This document shows, one piece after another, positions 9,907 to 12,254 of a DNA stretch of 34,796 nt. Numbering within the stretch: the stretch's first letter is position 1; the number at the start of each line of letters is the position of its first letter. The stretch is from Phycisphaerales bacterium (lineage in GTDB: Bacteria; Planctomycetota; Phycisphaerae; Phycisphaerales; SM1A02). The position numbers and the translations under genes are program-made. The notes under the pieces are model-generated. The model saw only the letters and a program-made list of their open reading frames with translations, made no database searches and was not told the origin of the DNA. The DNA is taken from the NCBI GenBank assembly GCA_022447205.1, contig JAKVBQ010000006.1, positions 71,186 through 105,981 of the forward strand, given 5' to 3'.

Positions 9907-11118
9907 TCAGGCCTTGGGCTCAGCCTCAGCCGGTGCACCAGCCTGGGCCGGAGCTGCCGCCGGCAGGTTCTGCTCCATGACCTTGCCCCGAATCTCGTCG
10001 AAGAGATCGGTGTTGTCGCGGAGGAACTGCTTGGCGTTCTCACGGCCCTGACCGAGCCGCACATCGCCGTAGCTGAACCAGGCACCCGACTTCTTGATGA
10101 TGTTGTCCGCAACGGCCAGGTCGACCAGGTCGCCGGAGAGCGAGATGCCCTCGTTGAACATGATGTCGAACTCCGCATTCCGGAACGGCGGGGCGATCTT
10201 GTTCTTGACGACCTTCGCTCGGACGCGGTTGCCGACGTTCTTCTCGCCATCCTTGATCGCACCGATGCGTCGGATGTCGATTCGGACGGAGGAGTAGAAC
10301 TTCAGTGCGCGGCCACCGGTGGTGGTCTCCGGGCTGCCGAACATGACGCCGATCTTCTCGCGAAGCTGGTTGATGAAGATCACGATGCAGTTGCTTCGAG
10401 CGATCGCACCCGTGAGCTTGCGCAGGGCCTGGCTCATCAGACGGGCCTGGAGGCCGACGTGGCTGTCGCCCATCTCCCCTTCGATCTCGGCACGCGGGAT
10501 CAGCGCGGCGACGGAGTCGACGATGATCACGTCGACGGCGTTGGAGCGGACCAGGAGCTCGCAGATCTCGAGCGCCTGCTCACCGGTGTCCGGCTGGGAG
10601 ACGAGGAGTTCGTCGAGGTTCACCCCGAGCTTCTTCGCCCAACTGGGATCAAGGGCGTGTTCCGCATCGATCATCGCAGCGACCCCACCCTCCTTCTGGG
10701 CGTTGGCGGCGACCGTCAGGGCGAGGGTGGTCTTGCCGGATGACTCCGGTCCGAAGACCTCGACGACGCGTCCTCGGGGAAGGCCTCGGCCACCGAGGGC
10801 GAGGTCCAGGCTGATCGTGCCCGCGGACACCGAAGGGATCTGCGGGATCGAGTCACCATCGAGCTTCATGATCGAGCCGGAACCGTAGGCCTTTTCGATC
10901 TGGCCGAGCGCCCGTTCGAGCGCCTGCTGCCTGCCGGCCTCCTTCTTGCGGGCATCTGCCTCTGCGGCGTTCTGGGAAGCGTTCTTCGAGGTCGGCTTGG
11001 AAGTGGTCGTCACCTTGGTCACCTTCGTCATGGGGCTGATGGAGCTGTCTGCTTTCGACTGAGCGGCGGTGCCGTTCGTGCCTTGCTTGGTTCTGGCTGC
11101 CGGAGTTGCTTGGGGCAT
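9907..11118 (-). CDS. recA: Recombinase RecA
   Basis: RecA forms filaments on single-stranded DNA, drives strand exchange and triggers LexA self-cleavage. The 403-residue product has Walker A GPESSGKT (123-130), the [24 protein letters not shown] core with the L1 loop, [22 protein letters not shown] (Walker B and L2) and KVVKNK. ATG 11118 is chosen: GAGG lies ten bases upstream, and longer versions would run through the inverted repeats at 11167-11228. Compared with E. coli RecA it has about 55 extra N-terminal residues rich in Thr, Lys, Ser and Ala. ATG 11031 would cut that to about 25 but has no ribosome site. The C-terminal tail is Ala/Pro/Glu-rich rather than strongly acidic. Confidence 0.97.
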
Positions 11119-11166: not shown

Positions 11167-11181
11167 ACCGATTTGTTCGGT
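11167..11181. promoter_or_regulatory. Inverted repeat upstream of recA (candidate operator, proximal copy)
   Basis: ACCGA-N5-TCGGT, 49 bases upstream of the recA start. On the recA strand it reads TACCGAACAAATCGGT. It shares the nine-base string TACCGAACA with the second copy at 11216-11229. It is a candidate binding site for a LexA-like repressor; the resemblance is to operator architecture in general, not to a consensus I can cite for this group. Confidence 0.4.
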
Positions 11182-11215
11182 ATCCGTCAGGGTACGGTCT
11201 GGGTCGACCACTTTG

Positions 11216-11228
11216 ACCGATGTTCGGT
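11216..11228. promoter_or_regulatory. Inverted repeat upstream of recA (candidate operator, distal copy)
   Basis: ACCGA-N3-TCGGT, 98 bases upstream of the recA start; on the recA strand TACCGAACATCGGT. The left arm and the following bases repeat the proximal copy at 11167, while the spacer is two bases shorter. The centres are about 48 bases apart. Confidence 0.4.
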
Positions 11229-11234
11229 AGATAT

Positions 11235-11258
11235 TCGGGTCTCTTTTTCAGGACCCGA
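11235..11258 (-). terminator. Hairpin after the UDP-xylose synthase gene (weak terminator or leader structure)
   Basis: A 7-bp inverted repeat TCGGGTC (11235-11241) and GACCCGA (11252-11258) with a ten-base loop sits 24 bases after the stop of the upstream minus-strand gene and before recA. It lacks a clear U-tract on the minus strand, so terminator function is uncertain. Confidence 0.35.
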
Positions 11259-11282
11259 GTATCCGGAGGTGCTCCAAGTCGT

Positions 11283-12254
11283 TCAATAGTTGGGAGTTGG
11301 GGCTCGATACTGACTCATGTCGATCGACCTGAAAAAGTCGATGGTTTGCTCGATGCCCTCCGCCAAGGCCACCTTCGGCGACCAGCCCAAGGTCGATTTG
11401 GCGAGGGAGATGTCCGGTTGTCGCTGGAGCGGATCATCTTCGGGCAGGCCGCGGGTCTGCTCGATCGCGGAGGCGGACCCGCTGATTCGAACCACGTGTT
11501 CGGCAAGCTCGCGGATCGTGAACTCATCGGGATTCCCCAGGTTCATCGGACCGGTGAAGTCATCCGGCCCGCCCATCATCGCCAGCAGCCCGTCCACGAG
11601 GTCGCTGACGTAGCAGAAGGAACGCGTCTGGGAACCGTCCCCGTAGAGGGAGATCGTCTCCCCCGCCAGCGCCTGGCGGATGAAGTTGCTCACCACCCGG
11701 CCGTCATAGGGGTGCATCCGGGGACCGTAGGTGTTGAAGATCCGGACCACCTTGATGTCGACCTTGTTCTGCCGGTGGTAGTCGAACATCAGGGTCTCCG
11801 CCGCGCGCTTGCCCTCGTCGTAGCACGCCCGGGGCCCGATCGGATTCACGTTGCCGCGATAGGACTCGGTCTGCGGGTGCTCGGTGGGATCCCCGTAGAC
11901 CTCGCTGGTCGAAGCGTGCAGGATCCGTGCGCCCACGCGCTTCGCGATGCCGAGCATGTGGATCGCACCGAGAATCGAGGTCTTGGTCGTCTTGATCGGG
12001 TTGTACTGGTAGTGCCCCGGTGCCGCCGGGCAGGCGAGATTGAAGATCTCGTCGACCTCGAGGGTGATCGGTTCGGTCACATCGTGGCGGATCAGCTCGA
12101 AATTGTTGTGATCCAGCAGATGGGCGATGTTCGACTTCTGGCTGGTGAAGAAGTTGTCCAGGCAGATCACGTCATGCCCGCCGGCGACCAGTCGGTCGCA
12201 CAGATGAGAACCCAGGAAACCAGCACCACCCGCCACGAGAACGCGTTTAAGCAT
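11283..12254 (-). CDS. uxs: UDP-glucuronate decarboxylase (UDP-xylose synthase), SDR family
   Basis: A 323-residue extended short-chain dehydrogenase that converts UDP-glucuronate to UDP-xylose using bound NAD+. The Rossmann motif GGAGFLGSH lies at residues 9-17. The active site has STSEVYGD (115-122) and the Tyr145-x3-Lys149 pair in CYDEGKR. The surrounding [17 protein letters not shown] is strongly characteristic of UXS enzymes. RTFCY-like text ([13 protein letters not shown]) and [11 protein letters not shown] also match. ATG 12254 has GGAGG seven bases upstream. It is divergent from anmK across 77 bases. UDP-xylose would feed exopolysaccharide or surface glycan synthesis; no glycosyltransferase lies nearby to confirm this. 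Confidence 0.93.

Follow-up and report, generated by a model that had tools for sequence, protein, structure and literature searches.

The two repeated motif copies in front of recA in a Phycisphaerales genome are very probably halves of two LexA operators (SOS operators) that belong to a class-wide direct-repeat box. The window, that is, the whole stretch of 34,796 nucleotides that was analysed (contig JAKVBQ010000006.1, assembly GCA_022447205.1), carries recA and, upstream of it, a sugar-epimerase-like gene whose stop is at 11283, leaving a gap of 164 bp between the two (Table 1). The reading is built on computed positions, on conservation, on an 11-bp period and on the sharing of the element with the lexA and umuD promoters; from these sequence features we infer that LexA is the binder, that its binding represses and that DNA damage induces.

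Table 1. Features at the recA promoter, numbered by position in the window.
Feature	Position	Strand	Remark
recA gene	9907..11118	-	ATG at 11118; TIGR02012, 543 bits
Second inverted repeat ACCGAACAAATCGGT, ACCGA-N5-TCGGT	11167..11181	-	49 bases before recA ATG
recA operator 2, weaker direct repeat CCTGACG-GATA-CCGAACA (CCTGACGGATACCGAACA)	11174..11191	-	Score 17.0
Probable recA -10 element TACCCT	11189..11194	-	recA loci compared by eye
First inverted repeat ACCGAACATCGGT, ACCGA-N3-TCGGT	11216..11228	-	98 bases before recA ATG
recA operator 1, direct repeat CCGAATA-TCTA-CCGAACA (CCGAATATCTACCGAACA)	11221..11238	-	Upstream of promoter

The sequence-only reading had drawn this region as two inverted repeats, ACCGA followed by a TCGGT arm, and had suggested a lineage-specific SOS operator. 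Both motif copies were found exactly at the positions and distances from recA given there, and the spacers of N3 and N5 were confirmed; the TACCGAACA copies before recA are spaced 47 bp apart. The true unit is in all likelihood an 11-bp-period direct repeat, not an inverted repeat, and is best read as a LexA site, with the consensus CC[G/T]AACA-N4-CCGAACA and the core [G/T]AAC-N7-GAAC (GAAC-N7-GAAC). A period of 11 bp corresponds to about one helical turn. Of the two ACCGAACA copies, the one within the first inverted repeat forms the half of operator 1 nearer to the promoter, and the one within the second forms operator 2's downstream half. Operator 2 is degenerate, with three mismatches to the consensus, overlaps a -10-like element and the expected transcription start, and is the analogue of lexA site 2 (CCTGACATATGCCGAACA).

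Half-sites with the same orientation and an offset of 11 bp are also present in the lexA-operon promoters of the window's own genome (G000) and of two relatives, G001 and G013. We searched these three genomes for CCGAACA-N4-CCGAACA, with the reversed pattern as a control. When at most one mismatch was allowed, the own genome contained only recA operator 1 and a site in a umuD-like promoter, CCTAACAGAACCCGAACA, with one match for the reversed control. At up to two mismatches, 55 places were found, including both lexA-operon sites (CTGAACAAGTCCCTAACA and CCTGACATATGCCGAACA), versus 23 for the control; the corresponding numbers were 60 versus 29 in G001 and 21 versus 3 in G013. Four of the own sites (recA operator 1, umuD and the two at lexA) recur in both relatives.

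A scoring matrix was built from 28 training sites, which came from other genera only and were chosen as the best direct repeats in repeat-bearing loci. Its scan of the own genome covered 193,444 bases, overlaps included; the genome-wide search used only the limit of two mismatches to the consensus, and all 55 candidates from it were scored with the matrix, the last two added giving 4.7 and 12.1. In the scanned stretches the top five matches were recA operator 1 (27.4), umuD (26.6), lexA site 2 (22.6), lexA site 1 (17.8) and recA operator 2. Among 4,172,280 positions of shuffled control sequence, four scored at least 15 and two at least 17, and the best reached 22.8. The recA operator 1 and umuD sites outscored every one of these positions. 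The other three sites are within genome-wide chance on score alone, and they count because of their location, not their score.

Several further candidates were rejected as targets. The sixth-best own match (L442, 16.0) lies within a long coding frame, as does L427, and L430 (14.3) is situated where convergent frames end or in the space separating them. Direct repeats in L281 and L282 (exact) and in L299 and L300 (one mismatch) resemble parts of mobile elements by eye. At these four loci, which belong to several genomes, a stretch of the form GCGCAACCG[T/A]ACA-N4-CCGAACA recurs close to the ends of contigs or, by eye, beside a transposase-like ORF; it is probably a mobile-element part that contains the direct repeat by chance.

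A comparison by eye of the sequence preceding recA in 30 genomes of the order, the own genome included, showed one layout in many of them: ACCGAACA, a short gap, TTGACA, 16-17 bp, NATCCT, approximately 6 bp, a second ACCGAACA and a short leader. Promoter elements, as well as likeness to UmuC and to transposases, were judged by eye throughout. Many relatives have NATCCT at the -10 position with TTGACA 16-17 bp upstream, and the own genome retains both ACCGAACA copies and the -10-like TACCCT, with a poor -35; a sigma-70 consensus scan found no canonical promoter at the own recA. A half-site pair with up to two mismatches was present in 26 of 44 recA loci, the own locus among them, and 16 of these 26 had the two half-sites spaced by 46, 47 or 48 bp. 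Among the matches listed, there were at least seven exact 47-bp pairs, in 7 of 61 genomes, all in recA-type promoters; six adjoin a located recA, and the pair in G003, where no recA was found, lies in the same kind of promoter. The conservation of the repeated ACCGAACA before recA across these genomes supports it beyond chance.

Other features of the recA region were also noted. In the stretch that leads from operator 2 to the recA start, ten relatives (L022, L025, L028, L030, L031, L036, L037, L040, L042 and L046) share TTGAC-N18-TATG at fixed length. We rejected it as a second promoter 3' of operator 2 and read it as leader plus start codon, because TATG holds the in-frame recA ATG in all ten matched loci. 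Between the epimerase-like stop and recA, positions 11230-11263 can form a hairpin with 12-nt arms (92% complementary), a 10-nt loop and no T-run, which is a possible terminator overlapping the upstream half of operator 1; this half doubles as the 3' arm of the hairpin. G001 and G013 retain a similar half-site, and no such hairpin is visible in them by eye. The window's RecA has an N-terminal extension of approximately 62 residues (10933-11118) ahead of the family match, and the extensions in relatives vary in length and sequence.

Across 61 genomes, the direct repeat was matched 188 times at up to one mismatch, versus 54 for the reversed control. Among the 150 of these 188 matches that were listed, at least 13 are located no more than 1.5 kb upstream of recA (at 10 of 56 genes) and at least 10 no more than 1.5 kb upstream of lexA (at 10 of 59 genes), versus approximately 0.06 expected for each, as calculated from the 150 listed matches with 3.5 Mb assumed per genome; none of the 150 lies downstream. 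Matches on the opposite strand made up 1 of the 13 listed at recA and 4 of the 10 at lexA.

The spacing of half-sites was then scanned at up to two mismatches, with G000, G001 and G013 left out and one locus (L326) dropped for want of an anchor. The class-wide recA set was drawn from 117 genomes with a recA match, from which 40 upstream stretches were taken across families and not by motif, and it also took in loci returned directly by the recA search. Period 11 was found at 35 of 89 recA loci, compared with 1-13 for other periods between 7 and 25 and a mean of 0.67 in base shuffles; the remaining 54 loci fell short of the two-mismatch threshold. At lexA, period 11 was found at 8 of 27 loci (other periods, 0-3; shuffles, mean 0.4). 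The 40 loci taken from other families included an exact copy (L357) and two one-mismatch copies (L341 and L349). As a positive control we used recA loci of other phyla returned by a recA search by name: exact GAAC-N7-GAAC was present at 22 of 27 loci in Alphaproteobacteria, 0 of 8 in Firmicutes and 0 of 12 in Actinobacteria, and exact GAAC-N4-GTTC at 4 of 8 in Firmicutes and 11 of 12 in Actinobacteria. One contig labelled Limnohabitans sp. MAG13 (L168) encodes a RecA 78% identical to that of the window, with a planctomycete-type direct repeat upstream, and this record looks mislabelled or mixed.

As is typical of an SOS box, the element stands in front of recA (operators 1 and 2, and the 35 other loci), in front of lexA, where it would serve autoregulation (two sites each in G000, G001 and G013), and at the error-prone polymerase operon (umuD). 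The lexA-associated sites lie approximately 0.4-1 kb upstream of lexA, and the promoter is placed there because another ORF intervenes. In the own genome (L016) this ORF has no Pfam match; by eye, several of the loci L078-L105 have an ORF upstream of lexA with a similar LxLGPGG stretch. Outside the close kin of the window, many lexA promoters have the form TTGACA...TGTTCGGGTAACGTAAACCGAACA, with a -10-like TAACGT between opposed half-sites; promoters of this form with GGTAACGTAAACCGAACA hold TAAC-N7-GAAC as well, and in L088 and L091 a second, reversed direct repeat lies upstream. By the matrix, 15 of 27 lexA loci scored below 15, in a set of which four were training loci. The direct repeat was present upstream of umuD in all 10 orthologues found, seven of them outside G000, G001 and G013; it is inverted relative to the gene and overlaps the -10 region by eye. 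In the own genome, a UmuC-like ORF lies 3' of umuD. Sought as a fourth target, imuA had no match over the family cut-off in any of the 61 genomes, and many of the matches were RecA itself.

A single LexA in the own genome exceeds the NCBIfam cut-off (TIGR00498, 167.9 bits); it has a DNA-binding domain (PF01726) and an S24 domain (PF00717). Its Ala-Gly cleavage site and its catalytic Ser and Lys align with those of solved LexAs, and the protein is, as judged from these sequence features, a canonical cleavable LexA. A LexA match was obtained in 59 of the 61 genomes, including the own. Identical LexA coordinates and E-values were obtained for G048, which belongs to the order, and for G165, the source of locus L171 (Phycisphaera sp. 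RI_212); the two are apparently a single genome, which should place the window in the order of this Phycisphaera assembly. The recognition helix of the own protein is SRVTVHEHIKALEKKG (also given as SRVTVHEHIKAL), and the linker has 21 residues. In 23 of 27 loci of the order the linker has 19-22 residues; two values of 61 in this set were anchor artefacts, and two loci gave none.

As long as DNA is intact, LexA on the two operators would deny RNA polymerase access to recA: on operator 2 it would mask the -10 region together with the start site, and on operator 1 it would sit on the DNA that precedes the -35. The single site at umuD and the two sites at lexA would place LexA over the promoter or next to it. 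After damage, RecA bound to single-stranded DNA would induce LexA to cleave itself, and this cleavage would release recA, lexA and umuDC jointly.

The sites might instead be bound by another DNA-damage regulator, either an activator or a second repressor of the S24 or WYL type, with LexA merely under its control. We consider this unlikely. At umuD, lexA and recA alike, the sites extend over the -10 region (by eye), as expected for a repressor, and recA, lexA and umuDC are the classic LexA set; in addition, the half-site core is the same as that of GAAC-type LexA boxes, both in our positive control and in the accessible part of PMC3323433. These points have to be set against the position of operator 1 upstream of the -35, which is frequent for activators, the poor -35 of the own recA, and one relative (G025, 97% complete) in which the recA element is present and no LexA match was found. 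Slightly less probable still is that LexA reads a palindrome, either of the Gram-positive type (GAAC-N4-GTTC) or TGTTCGG-N10-CCGAACA, and that the direct repeat is a by-product of overlapping half-sites. At up to two mismatches, inverted CCGAACA half-sites with a gap of 10 do occur at 12 of 27 lexA loci, but the count at recA is just 9 of 89, and the direct repeat is present at umuD in all 10 orthologues found. Those with a gap of 2 were found at 5 of 89 recA loci and none of 27 lexA loci, versus 35 and 8 direct repeats, and the Gram-positive palindrome was rejected as the general operator on these counts; GAAC-N4-GTTC is absent at the window's recA. Among the matches listed, exact ACCGAACA-NN-TGTTCGGT is present at two recA promoters (G006 and G017), where it lies in the promoter spacer with the geometry of the Gram-positive box, and once more within a coding frame (G057). 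The palindrome in G006 and G017 may be a remnant or a reversion.

Both ACCGA...TCGGT inverted repeats are present in the sequence, but that they are the operators as first drawn is very improbable, far more so than either of these alternatives. The 3.25-Mb own genome holds the pattern ACCGA-N3..5-TCGGT 37 times (4 for the reversed-pattern control), the two spacers differ, and among the 26 recA loci with a half-site pair the TCGGT arm is found twice at site 1 (in the window and G013) and once at site 2 (in the window). The inverted repeat was rejected as the operator unit on these counts and, because its TCGGT arm is almost never kept in recA loci, is most likely incidental. The broader idea of a lineage-specific SOS operator fared better than its inverted-repeat geometry and is well supported, because the element, once redrawn as a direct repeat, recurs at the lexA and umuD promoters of the own genome, and relatives carry it before all three genes. 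The sequence-only reading had named absence of the motif from other repair promoters and from relatives' recA regions as refuting, and for the redrawn motif this check favoured the idea.

Taken further, the LexA reading leads to a scenario that we favour by a narrow margin over its being wrong in some part: the class would have arrived independently at a direct-repeat LexA operator with the geometry seen in Alphaproteobacteria, starting from a GAAC palindrome whose remnants persist in two recA promoters, and this operator would be read by a short-linker, Firmicutes-like LexA. The core regulon might consist of just recA, lexA and umuDC, and recA would be closed by a pair of operators approximately 47 bp apart that flank the promoter. 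With a concrete and testable motif, the SOS regulon of this large group, most of which is uncultured, becomes open to study, and the apparently independent changes of a palindrome into a direct repeat grow in number by one. It also becomes directly testable how direct repeats are recognized by a LexA dimer, since the linker here is shorter and the helix different from those of the alphaproteobacterial LexAs compared.

Our literature search, to which most subscription papers were out of reach, found no motif described for LexA in Phycisphaerae or elsewhere in the Planctomycetes. For Verrucomicrobia, a 2016 paper reportedly gave the LexA box as TGTTC-N4-GAACA; that group shares the superphylum and the box shares the GAACA bases, but it is a palindrome with its half-sites in the other order, whereas the element described here is a direct repeat. 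The E. coli motif is not used by planctomycete LexA, according to the accessible text of PMC3108266. In the part of PMC7739468 that is accessible, the Balneolaeota box, TTACACATATTTTWTACATA, is likewise a LexA direct-repeat motif, with a different half-site sequence, and direct-repeat recognition by LexA is said to have arisen independently in several instances. The accessible parts of PMC3323433 and PMC8565304 report 17 LexA motifs and give the Gram-positive box as GAAC-N4-GTTC. This box has the same half-site core, two relatives have a true palindrome of this kind at recA, and the own helix is closer by eye to the Firmicutes type (SSSTVHGHLSRLEKKG; STVHGHL); its arms are inverted, whereas those at recA, lexA and umuD of the window's genome are direct. 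The same parts of these two papers give the alphaproteobacterial box as GTTC-N7-GTTC, a GAAC/GTTC direct repeat with an 11-bp period that, as here, is located at recA. The present element differs from it in its extended CC[G/T]AACA half-site and its degenerate upstream half. The proteins differ as well: the own helix, SRVTVHEHIKAL, is unlike the alphaproteobacterial SKSGIHRLITALEERG (SKSGxHRLIxAL), and its linker of 21 residues compares with 41-55 in four alphaproteobacteria, so that the own LexA lacks the alphaproteobacterial combination of a SKSGxHRLIxALEERG helix and a long linker. Because recognition helix and linker differ, the direct-repeat geometry shared with Alphaproteobacteria suggests, most simply, convergence and not transfer of an alphaproteobacterial lexA.
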